Of a DNA stretch of 64,000 nt, positions 43,556 to 56,661 are shown piece by piece; positions within the stretch are counted from its first letter, which is position 1; every line of letters starts with the position of its first letter. The position numbers and the translations under genes are program-made. The stretch is from SAR86 cluster bacterium AG-313-D11 (lineage in GTDB: Bacteria > Pseudomonadota > Gammaproteobacteria > Magnimaribacterales > D2472), in assembly GCA_003284215.1 (NCBI GenBank), contig QBVW01000003.1, positions 1 through 64,000 on the forward strand, read 5' to 3'. The notes under the pieces were generated by a model. That model made no database searches. It saw only the letters and a list, made by a program, of their open reading frames with translations, and was not told the origin of the DNA.

Positions 43556-45658
43556 ATGAATAAAATAAAATTAATTTTTATCTTCCTTTTTGTAGGTTGC
43601 TCAAATCAAAACCAAGAAACAATGAAAGCGCCAATTGCAAAAAAAATTCCAGTAACCTATTCTGCCCATGGCGATATCCGCATAGATAATTATGACTGGC
43701 TCAGAGACGATACAAGAAAAAATGAAGAAGTATTACAGCATCTTAGATTAGAAAATAAATATGTTGATTCGTGGTTTAACAATCAAGAATATAACTATGA
43801 AGAAGAGATCATGCAGGAATTTCTTAGTCGCTTGCCTGAAAATGAAATATCATTTCCATTCGATAACTTCGGAACTGAGTATTTCACTAAATCATTTAAG
43901 GATAAGCAACTCAGCATTTACTATAGAAATGATGGAGGAGAAGAATCATTAATTCTTGATCCTAATATTAAATTTAGTACTCAAGATTATTATCAAGTAA
44001 GTAGATTCAATCCAAGTCCTTCTAATAAATTTGCTGTATTTGGTGAAGACAATGATGGTCGCAGGAAATATATTGCAAAATTTATAGATCTCAATTCTAA
44101 TCAATTAATTGAAGATGAGTTGGAGCTAACATCAGGAAATATGGTTTGGGCAACAGACTCTAAGAGTATTTACTATTTAAAAAAAGATCCAGTCACATTA
44201 ATTTCTAACAAGTTATATAAACATACATTGGGTGAATCTCAATCATCTGATGAGTTAATTTATGAAGAGCTTGATAATGAGTTTAATTTAGGTATTTCAA
44301 AGAGCTCTTCAAAGGAATTTTTACTTCTAAATATTGAAAAAACAAATTCAAATGAAATAAGAATTCTTTCATTAGGTAGCTCTAATCAAGACAAGCTAAC
44401 AATTTTCTTACAAAGACAGGAAGATCATCTTTATAAAATAGACCACTCCAATGATATTTTCTATATTCAAACTAACCTCAATAGTCCCAATTATAGAATC
44501 ATGCAAAGCAAGAATGGGTTTATTTCCCATATAGATGAATCTAATGAGTTGATACCTCATGATCCAAATGTTTACATTCAAGATTTTGTAATAACTTCTT
44601 CATATATAGTCTTAGAAGTAAGAAAAAATGGTTTGCCAGCAATAAGTCAATATAAAAAAGATTCATTGTTGGCGATAGATATTATGCTTCCTGATACAAG
44701 CTATTTTGTATCACTAGCTTCTTCTGATTATGTTGACTATGAGAATAATCAATTTCATTATTATTATTCAAGTCCTAATAGACCCCTTGCAATTTATAAA
44801 GCAAACGCAATTAATAATACTTCCTCTAAGGTTTGGCAAAAAATAGTAAACAACTTTAAAGAAGATGATTATGTGGTTGAAAGAACTTTCAATGAAGTAA
44901 GAGATGGGACTATGGTGCCTGCAACTATAGTTTATAAAGCTGATAAAAGTCTTAATCGCCCTATCCTATTTTATGGCTATGGTTCATATGGAATTAATAG
45001 GGAAGCTCGCTTCAGTGAGTCTATCTTGCCTTTAATTAATAAGGGTTTTATTTTTGTGTATCTCAATATTCGGGGTGGTGCAGAAATGGGAAAAGAATGG
45101 TATGAACAAGGAAGAATGCTCAATAAAATGAATTCATTTTATGATTTTAATGACTCTGTAGAAGCTATTCTTAATAAGGGTTATGGAGATAAAAACAATG
45201 TATTTGCACAGGGTGGAAGCGCTGGTGGTCTATTAATGGGGGCAATTGTTAATTTAAAACCAGAACTTTACAAGGGAATTATCTCTGGAGTGCCATTTGT
45301 TGATGTGCTTACCACTATGTCTGATGAATCTATACCTTTAACCACTTTTGAATATGATGAATGGGGTAATCCAAATAATTATGAGGAGTATATGTACATG
45401 AAAAAGTATTCACCATACGATAATATCGATTACCTGAATTATCCAAGTATGCTGATTACCTCTAGTTTATTTGATTCTCAAGTACAATATTTTGAACCTG
45501 CAAAATATGCACCTAAACTAAGAGAGTACTCAACCTCTTCAAATCCTATACTTTTTAAGATTAATTTGATTGGGGGCCATGGAGGAAAAAGTGGCCGAAT
45601 TAATGGATTTGAAGAGACCGCGATGGAGCATAATTTTTTATTAAACCTTGTTGATTAA
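43556..45658 (+). CDS. S9A prolyl oligopeptidase family lipoprotein
   Basis: 700 residues from the ATG at 43556; the frame is open 20 codons upstream, but from 43556 it gives a proper lipoprotein signal (IFIFLFVGCSNQ, lipobox Cys at 15). The N-terminal seven-bladed propeller begins YDWLRDD. The catalytic triad is Ser about 555 in GGSAGGLLMG, Asp in FDSQV and His in GGHGGKSGR. It cleaves short peptides, often after Pro or basic residues (oligopeptidase B-like). Translation may couple to the M14 gene just upstream. Confidence 0.9.
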   Translation: MNKIKLIFIFLFVGCSNQNQETMKAPIAKKIPVTYSAHGDIRIDNYDWLRDDTRKNEEVLQHLRLENKYVDSWFNNQEYNYEEEIMQEFLSRLPENEISFPFDNFGTEYFTKSFKDKQLSIYYRNDGGEESLILDPNIKFSTQDYYQVSRFNPSPSNKFAVFGEDNDGRRKYIAKFIDLNSNQLIEDELELTSGNMVWATDSKSIYYLKKDPVTLISNKLYKHTLGESQSSDELIYEELDNEFNLGISKSSSKEFLLLNIEKTNSNEIRILSLGSSNQDKLTIFLQRQEDHLYKIDHSNDIFYIQTNLNSPNYRIMQSKNGFISHIDESNELIPHDPNVYIQDFVITSSYIVLEVRKNGLPAISQYKKDSLLAIDIMLPDTSYFVSLASSDYVDYENNQFHYYYSSPNRPLAIYKANAINNTSSKVWQKIVNNFKEDDYVVERTFNEVRDGTMVPATIVYKADKSLNRPILFYGYGSYGINREARFSESILPLINKGFIFVYLNIRGGAEMGKEWYEQGRMLNKMNSFYDFNDSVEAILNKGYGDKNNVFAQGGSAGGLLMGAIVNLKPELYKGIISGVPFVDVLTTMSDESIPLTTFEYDEWGNPNNYEEYMYMKKYSPYDNIDYLNYPSMLITSSLFDSQVQYFEPAKYAPKLREYSTSSNPILFKINLIGGHGGKSGRINGFEETAMEHNFLLNLVD

Positions 45659-49318: not shown

Positions 49319-49347
49319 TTGTTTTAACATGTTAAAACGTATAGAAT
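49319..49347 (+). promoter_or_regulatory. his-operon promoter with 18-bp operator palindrome
   Basis: TTGTTT (49319-49324) and TAGAAT (49342-49347) are 17 bases apart. The perfect palindrome GTTTTAACATGTTAAAAC (49321-49338) overlaps the -35 and fills most of the spacer. It lies directly before the TrpR-like gene, so autoregulation of the his operon is the obvious reading. The start point would coincide with the ATG at 49354. The divergent peroxiredoxin gene could also be affected. Confidence 0.7.
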
Positions 49348-49353
49348 CTCCAC

Positions 49354-49611
49354 ATGAAATTATCAACTGTACTAAAAGGCATAAATTCAACAAAAGATAT
49401 AGATAATTTTTTGAGAGATTTATGCACACCATCAGAAATTGAAGCGATGGAGGAGCGTTGGGAAGTAGCTAAGCTTTTGTATAAAGGTGACTCAACATAC
49501 AGAGATATCGCATCTAAGTTGAACACTTCTACAGCGACTGTGACTCGAGTTGCTAGATTTCTATATAAAGAATCAAATCAAGGCTATTTAAAGGTTTTAA
49601 AAGAAGGTTAA
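49354..49611 (+). CDS. TrpR-like (YerC/YecD type) regulator heading the his operon
   Basis: 85 residues, an all-helical TrpR-fold DNA-binding protein. The C-terminal helix-turn-helix is TYRDIASKLNTSTATVTRVARFLY; the N-terminal LRDLCTPSEIEAMEERWEVAKLLYKG is the dimerisation half. Genes of this type head his operons in several bacteria and have been proposed as histidine repressors (HisR); I use this as inference. The ligand is unknown. No ribosome site is seen, and the -10 ends six bases before the ATG. Confidence 0.88.
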   Translation: MKLSTVLKGINSTKDIDNFLRDLCTPSEIEAMEERWEVAKLLYKGDSTYRDIASKLNTSTATVTRVARFLYKESNQGYLKVLKEG

Positions 49612-49613
49612 AA

Positions 49614-50480
49614 ATGCAATCAAAAATAACTATAGCTATTCAAAGAAAAGGCAGGCTCTTTGAAAGCAGTAAAAAATTATTAATTAAATCTGGTATTAAT
49701 TTTTCTACATCTGGTGAAAAATTATTAGCTCGTTCATCCAATATGGATATCGATATACTTTTAGTGAGAGATGACGATATTCCTTCGCTTGTTTCTAAAG
49801 GAGTCGCTGATCTTGGAATTGTTGGGCAAAATGTTTTAGCAGAGCAAGCAGCGACTAACAGACAAATCACAGCAAAATCTATACTGAAATTAGGATTCTC
49901 AAAGTGTAAACTTGCATTTGCAAAGCCTCTTAATTCAAAGTTACGATCGTTAAAAAATAAAACAATAGCTACGTCTTATCCCGCTTTAGTGAAAAAGTAT
50001 TTAAGTAAAAATAATATAAATGCTGATGTAATTAAAATTAATGGTTCTGTAGAATTAACTCCATATATAGGAATAGCTGATTGTATTTGCGATCTAGTTT
50101 CATCAGGCGCAACGCTTGATGCCAATAACTTGATTGAATTTAAAACACTTATGGAATCAGAGGCTGTTCTCATATCTACCGTTGAATCTAAAAAGATAAG
50201 CCAAATTAATATCATAAATTTAATAAAAAGATTTGAGGGAGTTATCAATGCAGCAGAAAGTAAATATGTAATGTTGAATGCTCAAAGTAATGCAATTGAT
50301 AAAATATGCAAACTGTTGCCTGGAGCGGATTCACCAACAATTATTCCACTGCAGAAAGATAATAAAGTTGCAATACATGCTCTCTGCAAAGAACCTGTAT
50401 TTTGGGAAACAATGGAAAAATTAAAATCAAATGGAGCATCTTCAATTTTGGTTTTGCCAGTTGAGAAAATATTAAATTAG
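49614..50480 (+). CDS. hisG: ATP phosphoribosyltransferase, long form
   Basis: 288 residues, the HisZ-independent long form with a C-terminal ACT-like regulatory domain (residues about 215-288). It condenses ATP with PRPP, the first, feedback-inhibited step. ITIAIQRKGRLFESS, GVADLGIVGQNVLAE and ADCICDLVSSGATL are typical. AGAAGG lies just before the ATG, inside the end of the regulator gene. Confidence 0.95.
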   Translation: MQSKITIAIQRKGRLFESSKKLLIKSGINFSTSGEKLLARSSNMDIDILLVRDDDIPSLVSKGVADLGIVGQNVLAEQAATNRQITAKSILKLGFSKCKLAFAKPLNSKLRSLKNKTIATSYPALVKKYLSKNNINADVIKINGSVELTPYIGIADCICDLVSSGATLDANNLIEFKTLMESEAVLISTVESKKISQINIINLIKRFEGVINAAESKYVMLNAQSNAIDKICKLLPGADSPTIIPLQKDNKVAIHALCKEPVFWETMEKLKSNGASSILVLPVEKILN

Positions 50481-52352
50481 ATGAAAATTATCAATCGATC
50501 TACATCAAATAGTCAAATTCAATGGCTTGCTAGCAATTTCAATGATGAAAGTGTTAACAAGACAGTGATGCGTATTAAAAATTTAGTTTTAAATAATGGT
50601 ACTAAGGCTTTTGATCAGATTAATCAAGAGTTAAATCTTACTTCTCCTCGTTCATATAAAGTAAAAATTTCAGAAATTAAAAAATCTGAGCTTTTAATTG
50701 CAGATCCTTTAAAGCAGTCAATTCTTAATTCAGCAGCTAACATAAAAATTATTTGTGAGAATGATAAAAAAAGCCTTTCTGGACCACCTATTGAAACAAC
50801 TAAAGGAATAAAAATATGGAAGGAATTTAGATCAATTGATTCAGTTGGTATTTATGTTCCTGGAGGAAGCGCTCCATTAATTTCATCATTATTAATGCAG
50901 CTTATTCCTGCAAAAGTAGCAGGGTGTAAAAAAATTATAATTTGCACTCCCCCAGATAAAAATGGTGAGATTGCTCCTGAAATATTATGGGTTGCAAAAT
51001 TATATGACATAACCAGTATTTATAAAGTAGGTGGCGCCCAAGCAATATTTGGAATGGCTTATGGAACAACCATCATCCCAAAAGTAAATAAAATATTTGG
51101 ACCAGGTAATGCATATGTAAATGAAGCTAAAAAAGTAAGCTCTAACGAAGTTTCTATAGATCTTCCTGCGGGACCTAGTGAAGTAATGATAGTGACTGAT
51201 AAAATTCAAAATGCTGCTATTGCAGCCGCTGATGCATTGTCTCAACTAGAACATGATCCAAATTCACGTGCCTTTGTTATCTCAAAGAATCTTAATATCC
51301 TTAATAAAATCAGAACAGAGATTCGAAAGCAGTCAAAAGATTTATCAAGGCAATCTGTTATTGAAAAAAGCATGCAAAACTTGCTCATGATTAAATCTAA
51401 ATCTTTCAAAGATTCACTAACTTTAATTAATGAATGTGCCCCAGAGCATTTAATTTTATTAGATGAGGATTATTCTAAATATATTGGTGATATTAACAAT
51501 GCTGGGTCTATTTTTTGTGGTTCATTAAGCCCAGAATCATTTGGTGATTATTCATCTGGCTCAAATCATGTCCTACCTACTAACGGGAAAGCAAAAGTTC
51601 ACTCAGGCCTAAGCGTGAGTGATTTTGGTAAACAAATTAGCGTTCAAACCGCTTCACCTGAGGGATTTAATAATTTAAAAGATACGGTAATTGCAATGGC
51701 TAAAGCAGAAACCTTAGATGCTCATGAGAAAGCTGTAAAAATCAGAGAGGCACTAGCTTCAAATGAAGCAAGCTCAAGAAGTTTTACAGAAATTAGAAAA
51801 ACCAATGAGACTAGTATTTATATAAACTTAAATCTAGATGGCACAGGAAATTACAATATTAAAACTGGACTCAATTACTTAGATCATCTTTTAGAACAAT
51901 TTTCCAAGCATGGATCAATAGATTTAAACTTAACTTGTTTGGGCGATTTAGAAATAGACGAGCACCACACTATTGAAGATATAGCAATTTCACTTGGTAC
52001 GGCTATTAATAATGCTCTTGGTAATAGAGTTGGTATTTCAAGATATGCTTCAAGCGAAATATTAGTAATGGATGAAGTGAAAAGTAATATCAGTATAGAT
52101 TTAAGTTCTAGACGATATCTAGATTTTAAATGCTCTGAATTAAGGGATTATGTTGGTGATTTTCCAACTGAGATGTTTGAACATTTTTTTGTATCTCTTA
52201 TAAATTCAATTGCAATGACATGTCATATTGAAACAACAGGAAAGAATTCCCATCATTTGCTTGAAGCAACATTCAAAACTTTTGCAAGATGTTTAAAGTC
52301 AGCTGTGGTTATAGAATCCACTAAGTCTTCATCAACTAAAGGTTTGCTGTGA
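50481..52352 (+). CDS. hisDB: HisD-HisB fusion: histidinol dehydrogenase joined to imidazoleglycerol-phosphate dehydratase
   Basis: 623 residues in one frame. Residues 1-430 are HisD: SQLEHDPNS and GDYSSGSNHVLP and ETLDAHEKAV supply the zinc ligands, and NECAPEHLIL the catalytic Glu/His. From about residue 433 (base 51777) comes a complete HisB dehydratase: NYLDHLLEQFSKHG, DEHHTIED, EHFFVSL, KNSHHLLEATFKTFAR and the end SSTKGLL. HisB makes imidazole-acetol phosphate (step 7) and HisD does the last two steps. There is no histidinol-phosphate phosphatase domain and no hisC. The linker is short (SNEASS). Confidence 0.95.
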   Translation: MKIINRSTSNSQIQWLASNFNDESVNKTVMRIKNLVLNNGTKAFDQINQELNLTSPRSYKVKISEIKKSELLIADPLKQSILNSAANIKIICENDKKSLSGPPIETTKGIKIWKEFRSIDSVGIYVPGGSAPLISSLLMQLIPAKVAGCKKIIICTPPDKNGEIAPEILWVAKLYDITSIYKVGGAQAIFGMAYGTTIIPKVNKIFGPGNAYVNEAKKVSSNEVSIDLPAGPSEVMIVTDKIQNAAIAAADALSQLEHDPNSRAFVISKNLNILNKIRTEIRKQSKDLSRQSVIEKSMQNLLMIKSKSFKDSLTLINECAPEHLILLDEDYSKYIGDINNAGSIFCGSLSPESFGDYSSGSNHVLPTNGKAKVHSGLSVSDFGKQISVQTASPEGFNNLKDTVIAMAKAETLDAHEKAVKIREALASNEASSRSFTEIRKTNETSIYINLNLDGTGNYNIKTGLNYLDHLLEQFSKHGSIDLNLTCLGDLEIDEHHTIEDIAISLGTAINNALGNRVGISRYASSEILVMDEVKSNISIDLSSRRYLDFKCSELRDYVGDFPTEMFEHFFVSLINSIAMTCHIETTGKNSHHLLEATFKTFARCLKSAVVIESTKSSSTKGLL

Positions 52353-52930
52353 CCGTAGCTATTATCGATTGCGGAGGAGCAAATCTTCGCTCAGTTCAAA
52401 AAGCAGTTGAGATTCAAGACATGAAAGTCGTTATTACGAAGGATAAAAATACGATATCAAATGCTTCTTTTGTTATTCTTCCTGGTGTTGGCTCTGCAAA
52501 GAGTGTCATGAATAATCTCCAAGATAGCAATCTCATAGAAACAATCAAAGAGCTGACAATGCCAGTTTTAGGAATTTGTATTGGGATGCATGTTCTCTTT
52601 GATTATTCTGCTGAGCACAATACTGAATGTCTAGGCATCGTCTCAGGTAATATTAAAAAATTTGATTCCAAATACACTGTTAAGGTTCCTCAGATGGGGT
52701 GGAATAAAGTAACATTTGATCAAGAAAAGTTTAAGGCACTTGATAATTACTATTATTTTGCTAATAGCTATTATTCACAAATTTCTGATCTAACCCTAGG
52801 TTCAGCTGAGCATAGCGAATCCTTTGCAGCCGTTATACAAAAAGATAATTTTCTTGGATGTCAGTTTCATCCGGAAAAATCATCATTTGCAGGTAAAAAA
52901 TTTCTTTATCATTTTTTTAATGCATCATGA
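52349..52930 (+). CDS. hisH: Imidazole glycerol phosphate synthase glutaminase subunit
   Basis: 193 residues; starts with GTG at 52349, overlapping the hisDB stop by 4 bases. Class I glutamine amidotransferase: Cys in LGICIGMHVLFDYS, His/Glu in GCQFHPEKSS. It feeds ammonia from glutamine to HisF. Typical order hisH-hisA-hisF. Confidence 0.95.
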   Translation: MTVAIIDCGGANLRSVQKAVEIQDMKVVITKDKNTISNASFVILPGVGSAKSVMNNLQDSNLIETIKELTMPVLGICIGMHVLFDYSAEHNTECLGIVSGNIKKFDSKYTVKVPQMGWNKVTFDQEKFKALDNYYYFANSYYSQISDLTLGSAEHSESFAAVIQKDNFLGCQFHPEKSSFAGKKFLYHFFNAS

Positions 52931-53646
52931 GAATTCTTCCTGCTATAGATCTAAAAAATGGACATTGCGTAAGATTACTCCAAGGTGATTTTAATAAGGT
53001 TACTAAATATAATTCAGATCCGTTAGCACAGGCAAATTACTTTAAATTAAATCAGCTAAATCATTTACATATAGTAGATCTTGATGGTGCAGAAACTGGA
53101 AATCAGCTCAACTCAAATATTATTAAGAAAATTTTAGGAATCCCTGACATTACATTACAAGTTGGTGGTGGTATTAGGTCTATTCAAAAAGCTGAATCCA
53201 TGCTTAATATGGGTGTCTCAAGGGTTATTGTTGGTACTGCCCTATTCCAAGGAAATTTTTTACAAGACTTAAAAATGAATTTTGATGCAGATCAAGTTGT
53301 ATTAGCGTTAGATTTTAAAATCAATAATTTGATACCTACAATTTATACTCATGGCTGGCAGGATAATAGCCAAATAGATCTGTATGACTTCTTAGACACT
53401 CAATCATTCTTTTCAAATATACTAGCTACTGACATTTCTTTGGATGGATTGATGAAGGGTCCCAGTTTTGATGTTTATAAAGAAATTTTAAATCTATTTC
53501 CATCATTAAATCTTATAGCTTCAGGGGGCATTAAAAGCCTTCAAGATCTTGATGAGCTGAAGGCTTTGCAAATTACAGAAACTGTTGTTGGAAAAGCTAT
53601 ATACGAAGAAAATATTTCCTTAAGGGATCTTAGCAATGATTACTAA
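52927..53646 (+). CDS. hisA: ProFAR isomerase
   Basis: 239 residues, an eight-stranded barrel. MRILPAIDLKNGHCVRLLQGDF has the catalytic Asp; QVGGGIRSIQKAE, ATDISLDGLMKGPS and IASGGIKSLQDL are the other phosphate-site loops. It converts ProFAR to PRFAR in the fourth step of the pathway. The ATG overlaps hisH (ATGA), and its 3' end overlaps hisF by 11 bases. Confidence 0.96.
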   Translation: MRILPAIDLKNGHCVRLLQGDFNKVTKYNSDPLAQANYFKLNQLNHLHIVDLDGAETGNQLNSNIIKKILGIPDITLQVGGGIRSIQKAESMLNMGVSRVIVGTALFQGNFLQDLKMNFDADQVVLALDFKINNLIPTIYTHGWQDNSQIDLYDFLDTQSFFSNILATDISLDGLMKGPSFDVYKEILNLFPSLNLIASGGIKSLQDLDELKALQITETVVGKAIYEENISLRDLSNDY

Positions 53647-54403
53647 GCGAATAATACCTTGTCTTGACGTTAAAGAGGGCAAAGTTGTAAAAGGAGTACA
53701 ATTCAAAAATCACAAAATAGTTGGTTCAATAATTGATTTAGCACAAAAGTATTCTAATGATGGAGCTGATGAATTGGTATTTTATGATATCTCAGCAAGT
53801 ACGGAAGGTTCTATTGTTGATAAAGAGTGGGTATCAAAAATTGCTGAAGTAATTAATATACCTTTTTGCGTTGCAGGAGGTATAAAGTCTATAGAGGATG
53901 CAAGACAGATACTAAACTTAGGGGCTGATAAAATTTCTATCAATACTCCAGCTTTAAATGATCCTCAATTAATTCAAATACTTAGCAATGAATTTGGTTC
54001 ACAATGCGTTGTTATAGGTATGGATATAAAGCTTATTGATGGTCAGGCGTACTTATTTGCAAAAACCGGTAGCGAGAAAACAGCCTTTGCAACTAACATA
54101 AAAGCCGATGATTGGATGATTAAGGTGCAAGAGCTTGGAGCTGGTGAGGTTGTAATTAATGCTATGGGACAAGATGGTGTTAAGAATGGATATGATATCG
54201 AATTACTAAAATCACTTGGATCCATATGTTCAATACCCATGATTGCATCAGGTGGTGCTGGAGAACCCCAACATTTTATTGATGTTTTTAAACAAACAAA
54301 TGTTGATGGAGCTCTTGCAGCGACTATATTCCATAGAAATGAATATTCCATAAATCAGGTTAAGAAAGAGCTGCAAGCTAATAATATAAATATAAGGATA
54401 TAA
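53636..54403 (+). CDS. hisF: Imidazole glycerol phosphate synthase cyclase subunit
   Basis: 255 residues, the usual size. The catalytic Asp are in IPCLDVKEGKVVKGVQF and VVIGMDIK; VINAMGQDGVKNGYDIE and SGGAGEPQHFIDVF complete the barrel. With HisH it makes imidazole glycerol phosphate and AICAR, which links to purine synthesis (purB is in the window). Confidence 0.97.
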   Translation: MITKRIIPCLDVKEGKVVKGVQFKNHKIVGSIIDLAQKYSNDGADELVFYDISASTEGSIVDKEWVSKIAEVINIPFCVAGGIKSIEDARQILNLGADKISINTPALNDPQLIQILSNEFGSQCVVIGMDIKLIDGQAYLFAKTGSEKTAFATNIKADDWMIKVQELGAGEVVINAMGQDGVKNGYDIELLKSLGSICSIPMIASGGAGEPQHFIDVFKQTNVDGALAATIFHRNEYSINQVKKELQANNINIRI

Positions 54404-54404
54404 G

Positions 54405-54995
54405 ATGATGAATTTAAATTGGGAAAAAGTGAATGGGTTAATGCCCGCTATCATCCAAGATCATGAAACGTTAGAGGTATTAATGCTTGGTTACATGAGC
54501 AAAGAAGCCTTGGAAATTTCTCAATCCTCAGGTTTTGCTACTTTTTATAGTAGAACACGACAAAAATTATGGACAAAAGGTGAAACATCTGGAAATAAGC
54601 TCACTATAAAAAAAATAATCCATGATTGTGATAACGATACGCTATTAGTTCTTGCAAAAAATAGTGGCCCTACATGTCATTTAAATAATAATTCATGTTT
54701 TATAGGTGCTCCCTCTTCCTTAAATATTTTAGATGAATTAGAGCAAACCATAGATACTAGATTTAAAGATGCTAAGAAGTCTTCATATACTTATCAGCTG
54801 TATACAGATGGAATAAAAGAAATTGCAAAAAAAATAACAGAGGAAGCGGGAGAGGTATCAATATCAGCAGTAACAGATGATGGGAGAGTTATAGATGAAT
54901 CTGCTGACCTGATGTACCACCTTTTGGTCATGCTTAGAAAGTTAAATCTAAGTCATTTGGATGTCTTGCAAGAATTAAAAAACAGATCTAAGTAA
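54405..54995 (+). CDS. hisIE: Bifunctional phosphoribosyl-AMP cyclohydrolase / phosphoribosyl-ATP pyrophosphatase
   Basis: 196 residues. HisI part: VLMLGYMSKEALEIS, TFYSRTRQKLWTKGETSGN, DCDNDTLLVLA and GPTCHLNNNSCF (zinc/Mg sites). HisE part from about residue 107: LEQTIDTRFKD and AKKITEEAGEVSISAV, DESADLMYHLLVML. It performs steps 2 and 3. The first of two adjacent ATGs is used. The gene ends one base before the convergent symporter gene. Confidence 0.96.
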   Translation: MMNLNWEKVNGLMPAIIQDHETLEVLMLGYMSKEALEISQSSGFATFYSRTRQKLWTKGETSGNKLTIKKIIHDCDNDTLLVLAKNSGPTCHLNNNSCFIGAPSSLNILDELEQTIDTRFKDAKKSSYTYQLYTDGIKEIAKKITEEAGEVSISAVTDDGRVIDESADLMYHLLVMLRKLNLSHLDVLQELKNRSK

Positions 54996-54996
54996 A

Positions 54997-56661
54997 TTAC
55001 TTTTCAACAATATAATTAGTAACTTGTTCTTTCATCTCCTTTCTTAGAATAAACAAAGCAAATAAGTTGGGTATTGTTACCAAAGCTACTACTACATATG
55101 CGATATTCCAAACAACAGTTGTGTCTATTACAGCTGCAGCAATAAAACAAACTACGTAGATTATTCGATACCAAGGAACTGCATTCTCGCCAAAGATATA
55201 AGCCGTGGATCTGTCGCCATAGTATGACCAAGCTATGGCTGTAGAAAAAGCAAATAATAGCAATCCAATTGCTACAATATATTCGCCATATTTACCAAGC
55301 ACGCCTGAACCAAAAGCTTTGGATGTTAATTCAGCTGAATGAATTAACGATTTACCTTTTACAGATACAGAAGAATCCATTATCTCACCATTAACTACTT
55401 CTAAATCTCCCTCGAAGAAATTGTTATTCTTATGAAAAGTAACATCTTCAGCAATAGAGTTGTTATGAAAAATTGTAATATTGCTTTGTTGGATTTCACC
55501 ATTTACAACAGGCAAATTTCCAGAAAAGTTTTTTACTGCCGTTGTATTAGTAGTGAAATTCCTAGCATCAAGAATATATTTACCAAGTTCCTCCACATCG
55601 TTTAGATTTGATTCATTATATTCACCAGCAAAAATTGCCATCGAAGATCTTTCAAAAGTATTATCGTACTTCTGAATCCATGCTCCGCTGGATAAGATTA
55701 CAAGAGCAGTAACGCTACAAACAACAATTGTATCTATGAATGGTTCTAAAATAGATACCATGCCTTGCTCTACTGAATGCTCTGTCCTTGCAGAAGCATG
55801 AGCAATTGGTGATGAGCCTTGACCTGCTTCATTCGAATACAAGCCTCTTGCAACACCAAGTTTTAGACTCATTGCAAAACTTGCTCCTAAAAATCCACCG
55901 GCAGCAGCAGAGCCTGAGAAAACTTGAGAAAAGATAGAGTGAAAAGAAGGAATTATGTTTTGATAGTTCTCAATTACAACAACTAGCGCCCCTCCAAAAT
56001 ATATTACAGCCATAAATGGAACTAATTTACTGGCAATTTTAGCAATTCTCTTGATACCACCAGAGATTATCATCCACAACATGATCCCTAAAATTAATCC
56101 TGTTGCAAGCTTAGGAATGCTAAAAGTTGAATCAAGAACACTTGCTATATTATTGATTTGCGGCATATTACCAGATCCAATAGCACAGATCATCATTAAA
56201 GCAGCAAATAGAACCCCTGCCCATCTCTTATTAAAGCTTTTCTCAATGTAGTACATTGGTCCACCAGAAATTGAGCCATCAGACAACGTTGTTCTATATT
56301 TATGAGCCATCGTCACTTCAACAAACTTTGTAGTCATCCCAAATATTGCAGTTATCCACATCCAAAAAATTGCTGCAGGGCCTCCAATCCATATAGCTAA
56401 TGCGACACCACCAATATTTCCGGTACCAACAGCACCAGACATAGCTGTGGTTAAAGCTTCAAAAGGAGTCGTCTCGCCTTGCACATCATCTTTTGCATAT
56501 TTGCCAGTAACAATTCGCCACCCATGGGCAAAGAATTTAAACTGCGGAAAACCTAAATAAGCTGTAAAAAATATACCTGTGCCAATAAGAAATGCTGGAA
56601 ACCACCATGAACCACTGAGATATCCATCTAAGAGCAACAAAAAATCATTAAAGGCAACCAT
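54997..56661 (-). CDS. AGCS family sodium:alanine/glycine symporter with extra loop domain
   Basis: 554 residues; most AGCS proteins have about 450-500. Conserved: AMSGAVGTGNIGGVALAIWIGGP, GLYSNEAGQGSSPIAHASA and AIAWSYYGDRSTAYIFG. Around residues 335-430 an extracytoplasmic hydrophilic insertion of about 100 residues interrupts the fold after ALVILSSGAWI. It contains two similar units (PVVNGEIQQSNITI and EVVNGEIMDSSVSV). It imports amino acids with sodium. Next upstream is grxC (10-base gap). Confidence 0.9.
   Translation of the reverse strand: MVAFNDFLLLLDGYLSGSWWFPAFLIGTGIFFTAYLGFPQFKFFAHGWRIVTGKYAKDDVQGETTPFEALTTAMSGAVGTGNIGGVALAIWIGGPAAIFWMWITAIFGMTTKFVEVTMAHKYRTTLSDGSISGGPMYYIEKSFNKRWAGVLFAALMMICAIGSGNMPQINNIASVLDSTFSIPKLATGLILGIMLWMIISGGIKRIAKIASKLVPFMAVIYFGGALVVVIENYQNIIPSFHSIFSQVFSGSAAAGGFLGASFAMSLKLGVARGLYSNEAGQGSSPIAHASARTEHSVEQGMVSILEPFIDTIVVCSVTALVILSSGAWIQKYDNTFERSSMAIFAGEYNESNLNDVEELGKYILDARNFTTNTTAVKNFSGNLPVVNGEIQQSNITIFHNNSIAEDVTFHKNNNFFEGDLEVVNGEIMDSSVSVKGKSLIHSAELTSKAFGSGVLGKYGEYIVAIGLLLFAFSTAIAWSYYGDRSTAYIFGENAVPWYRIIYVVCFIAAAVIDTTVVWNIAYVVVALVTIPNLFALFILRKEMKEQVTNYIVEK

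Follow-up and report, generated by a model that had tools for sequence, protein, structure and literature searches.

We consider it very probable that, in the SAR86 bacterium analysed here, a dimer of the TrpR-family protein HisR, sitting on a 20-bp palindromic site, represses its own gene and the histidine biosynthesis (his) operon when histidine is plentiful. According to the proposed mechanism, the HisR dimer, most likely with histidine as co-repressor, would occupy this site. Since the operator fills the space between the −35 and −10 hexamers, a bound dimer would exclude RNA polymerase; the models for this are TrpR and the HisR protein of Ruminococcus gnavus. An ample supply of histidine would then switch off both hisR itself and the his operon. 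Histidine as the presumed ligand is taken from R. gnavus HisR, a distant homologue and the only HisR assayed for binding by Ashniev 2022 (PMC9413887), for which histidine was the most effective stimulator of site binding in vitro. The preliminary description of this DNA had proposed an autoregulated histidine repressor, and the conserved site, its match to the published HisR motif and the position of hisR at the head of the operon largely support that proposal at the level of sequence. The relevant features of the window, by which we mean the whole stretch of 64,000 nucleotides that was analysed, are the following:

49319..49324, + strand: probable −35 hexamer TTGTTT, placed by its 17-nt spacing to the −10 hexamer; it overlaps the left half of the operator
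49320..49339, + strand: predicted HisR operator of 20 bp, based on the perfect core at 49321-49338, conservation and the published motif
49342..49347, + strand: probable −10 hexamer TAGAAT, separated from the ATG by 6 nt, a position typical of HisR promoters
49354..49611, + strand: hisR, encoding a predicted repressor of 85 amino acids (TrpR family, YerC/HisR branch), based on family models, the nearest solved chain and residues
49614..50480, + strand: hisG, long form with a C-terminal regulatory domain, based on profile matches
50481..52352, + strand: hisD-hisB fusion (histidinol dehydrogenase and imidazoleglycerol-phosphate dehydratase)
52349..52930, + strand: hisH, named by sequence and position, with the same order in relatives
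52927..53646, + strand: hisA, named on the same grounds
53636..54403, + strand: hisF, named on the same grounds
54405..54995, + strand: hisIE, the last gene, named on the same grounds

The operon thus comprises seven reading frames in the order hisR-hisG-hisDB-hisH-hisA-hisF-hisIE, which overlap slightly or are separated by gaps of 0-2 nt. The reading frame at 49354-49611 matches PF01371 and is followed by hisG from position 49614, 2 nt after the hisR stop codon, just as the preliminary description had it (a TrpR-fold regulator of 85 residues and then hisG). At the other end, a convergent gene for an AGCS-type transporter ends at 54997, adjoining hisIE. An imperfect inverted repeat with 20-nt arms lies within the start of hisR (49379-49425, + strand), and the stretch 49354-49460 that contains it has a folding z of −2.1. 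It was also observed that hisD and hisB (IGPD) share one frame of 623 amino acids and that this fusion occurs in every related SAR86 locus with readable genes; the term 'hisDB' gives no hits in a survey of fused his genes from 2007.

Sequence matches to solved HisR and TrpR chains settle the family membership of the predicted repressor. The protein matches PF01371 with an E-value of 2e-21 and scores 52 bits with the YerC model TIGR02531, above the cut-off of 42.2. Its nearest solved chain is 3g1c from Eubacterium eligens, which has been called HisR and used as the HisR structure (Ashniev 2022, PMC9413887). It is highly unlikely that the regulator is instead a true TrpR with tryptophan as co-repressor, which would place the his operon under tryptophan control. 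Such a reading could draw on the shared fold family and on the resemblance between the published proteobacterial HisR motif and the TrpR operator (Ashniev 2022, PMC9413887). However, the score with the TrpR equivalog model TIGR01321 is 39.9 bits, below the cut-off of 67.25, and after the recognition helix the window protein reads STATVTRVAR where the TrpR group has RGSN. RVAR, which conforms to the R-V-A/K-R pattern of HisR, is typical of his-linked homologues and RGSN of unlinked ones.

The distribution of the gene also argues against TrpR, because hisR tracks hisG across genomes. Of the 107 family genomes, 53 possess hisG and each of these also has hisR (53/53), while hisR was found in 54. 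Even where the genome is streamlined to about 1.3 Mb, a dedicated histidine repressor is thus retained for almost precisely as long as the histidine pathway itself. Furthermore, the genome to which the window belongs (1.3 Mb, 75% complete) contains no site other than that at hisR-his when up to 2-3 mismatches are allowed, in line with one operator site per genome, and no PF01371 protein other than HisR was found in it. A candidate second regulon site, TGCTTTAGCATGTTTAAGCA, which occurs with close forms in many relatives, was rejected because it lies inside a TPR/sulfotransferase-like coding sequence; we regard it as a coincidence. The gene hisC is located on another contig among other genes, and no site was detected near it in this genome with up to 2 mismatches. 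The expectation that the palindrome would also precede the his genes of relatives was thus borne out for hisR and not for hisC, where the window's own genome has no site.

The site is well conserved within the SAR86 family. In the genus of the window, every readable genome with both hisR and hisG carries TGTTTTArCATGyTAAAACA, or a form of it with a single mismatch, 14-15 nt upstream of the hisR ATG. The other genera carry a variant, TGTnnnA-6-TnnnACA, 8-17 nt before the ATG, and across the family almost every readable hisR has a 20-bp TGTnnTA-6-TAnnACA in front of it. Relatives that share the gene order have therefore kept the palindrome, whose absence from them had been named beforehand as the result that would speak against an operator. 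All named records with a 73-89% identical hisR belong to SAR86 cluster bacteria, except for one contig filed under Flavobacteriales. This contig (NYWQ01000037.1, locus L075, 'Flavobacteriales bacterium') carries a SAR86-like hisR (86% identical) and hisDB, and is probably misbinned. In one further genome (G010, locus L189) hisG and hisD seem to be interrupted by stops or frame breaks despite a perfect operator, which may reflect pseudogenes or sequencing errors.

The palindrome lies in an intergenic region shared with a divergent peroxiredoxin gene, 66 nt upstream of the start codon of the latter, and it might accordingly serve that gene, for example as the site of a redox regulator, and be near hisR only incidentally. 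We judge this to be very improbable, and as the sole function of the site it is already contradicted by the comparison of genomes. Upstream of hisR there may be the peroxiredoxin gene together with a hydroxyisobutyrate-dehydrogenase-like gene, the latter gene alone, or neither of them. The site is nonetheless retained, at a roughly constant distance from hisR, where the peroxiredoxin gene is missing, where the upstream gene is a different one or lies on the same strand, and where the neighbourhood is different altogether. Because the operator is conserved whatever the upstream neighbour, the site belongs to hisR, and the earlier assignment of the site to the peroxiredoxin promoter as well does not hold up. 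The reverse case is provided by G015 (locus L188, G015:C2:50000-62000), the sole genome among the 107 with hisR and no hisG. Here hisG-hisIE have been lost, the flanking genes on both sides are kept in order and hisR is still open; the peroxiredoxin gene remains, but the operator has decayed to TTTATTATCAGAATAGAACA. Decayed, variant and intact operators together constitute a natural data set on the evolution of TrpR-family repressors and their sites.

The idea that the palindrome is a functionless product of chance in AT-rich DNA can be given hardly any credence, although perfection by itself would not dispose of it. The perfect palindrome of 18 bp without spacer that had been pointed out is indeed present, as GTTTTAACATGTTAAAAC at 49321-49338, and its core ends 15 nt before the ATG (49354) of the 85-codon gene. 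The 20-bp form TGTTTTAACATGTTAAAACG at 49320-49339 describes the functional unit better. In the window, 2 perfect palindromes of at least 18 bp (arms of at least 9) were observed versus 0.53 expected (the mean over first-order Markov sequences), so that perfection alone is weak evidence. What makes the palindrome significant is its conservation, together with its placement. It is conserved in 46 distinct promoters from nine genera of the family while the flanks have diverged, and it agrees with an independently published motif. In these 46 promoters the 20 operator columns contain on average 1.48 bits of information (a value inflated by the placement of operators by best consensus match), compared to 0.69 bits for the 30 upstream columns and 0.79 bits for the downstream columns, which contain the −10 box. 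A different perfect palindrome in the window, ATAAAATGAATTCATTTTAT at 45123-45142, is 20 bp long and thus exceeds the one at 49321-49338 in length.

The hexamers between which the operator lies are present where they had been described (TTGTTT-17-TAGAAT, with the palindrome over the −35 hexamer and the spacer), at 49319-49324 and 49342-49347. TTGTTT is a weak −35 hexamer that agrees with TTGACA at only 3 of 6 positions, and a scan for generic sigma-70 promoters did not call the hisR promoter at its threshold. The position of the −10 hexamer is characteristic: the best −10 box is located 6-7 nt upstream of the ATG in 48 of 60 HisR promoters, and a misassigned upstream ATG accounts for some of the exceptions. 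In the whole window only 2 of 13 boxes of comparable quality are placed in this manner (a small sample), which indicates that such a position is no general rule there. Judging from the position of the promoter, the predicted transcription start coincides with 49354 or lies at most about 1 nt from it, and the hisR mRNA appears to be leaderless. Such a transcript would leave no room for an attenuator, a T-box or a riboswitch. Consistent with this, neither a leader with His codons nor a T-box structure was found, an Rfam search gave no match, and no His-rich peptide is encoded in any of the three plus-strand frames over the 200 nt that precede hisR, as had been noted before. An RNA hairpin (terminator or attenuator) in a his leader, which an inverted repeat 5' of an amino-acid operon might call to mind, is scarcely conceivable here since the palindrome lies upstream of the predicted transcription start, has neither loop nor T-tract, and is accompanied by no Rfam match and no His-rich leader peptide.

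The preliminary description further regarded the repressor as a replacement for the attenuator of enterics. The attenuator is indeed missing here, but the notion of a swapped element fits the sister families less well. In the two sister families that possess hisG (loci L193-L198) the HisG protein is short and there is no TrpR-family (PF01371) protein. At the two fully read loci hisG comes straight after murA, abutting or overlapping it without a leader, and no attenuator was seen. The short HisG, the lack of a TrpR-family protein and the adjacency to murA point to a different his operon rather than to a swapped regulatory element, and this contrast suggests operon replacement. One order thus contains two types of his operon, one with a long HisG and hisR, the other with a short HisG and no hisR. 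In class and phylum samples outside SAR86, nearly all HisR-type genes (RVAR) precede hisG, and most have a TGTAnTA-6-TAnTACA-like site not far from the start codon, whereas none of the TrpR-type genes (RGSN) in these samples precedes hisG.

Judged by its sequence features, the system in the window has every HisR property that could be tested and is of a kind that has essentially been described already. For alpha- and gammaproteobacteria, Ashniev 2022 (PMC9413887) reported the HisR motif TGTAnTArnnnnyTnTTACA, with hisR as the first his gene and the site just upstream; these proteobacterial sites are predicted only. The linkage of YerC-like genes with his genes, which had been attributed to other phyla, is therefore real but has been described within Proteobacteria as well. 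The type of operator motif and the hisR-first arrangement are shared with the window, while the half-site differs at base 4, which is A in TGTAnTA and T in the TGTTTTA of the window genus. The HisR proteins of Firmicutes (Bacillus YerC, R. gnavus HisR) share the family and the his targets, and histidine-stimulated binding is expected. Their operator consensus, cacTTTAnnnnnnTAAAgtg, is unlike that of the window, and their genes are often located outside the his operon, unlike hisR in the window. Escherichia coli TrpR and its relatives have the fold family, the 20-bp operator spacing and autoregulation in common with HisR, but differ in the residues after the recognition helix (RGSN versus RVAR), in the ligand and in the target genes. 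The enteric his attenuator (RF00514) likewise switches the his operon by histidine supply; it is, however, RNA-based and requires a leader with His codons, which the promoter in the window lacks.

Predicted HisR control is hereby extended to SAR86, a group of abundant and mostly uncultivated marine bacteria. The main text of Ashniev 2022 (PMC9413887) mentions neither SAR86 nor leaderless transcripts, and the additions to the known picture, namely the leaderless geometry and a weak co-change of HisR residue 80 and operator base 4, are modest. We tentatively propose, as a possibility with somewhat less than even chances, that the HisR-controlled his mRNAs of SAR86 and some other Proteobacteria are leaderless from the hisR ATG with the operator inside the core promoter, and that repressor residue 80 and operator base 4 have co-evolved in SAR86. 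In SAR86, every protein with Ala at residue 80 (TrpR numbering) is paired with a half-site that has T at base 4, and Thr80 is nearly always paired with A or G, locus L029 being an exception. On the SAR86 tree the direction of this co-change is consistent, but it reflects just 1-3 independent events and is not significant, so the link is a suggestion rather than a result. In Firmicutes, Ala80 is common and the sites read cacTTTA (Ashniev 2022, PMC9413887), which fits the pairing seen in SAR86.
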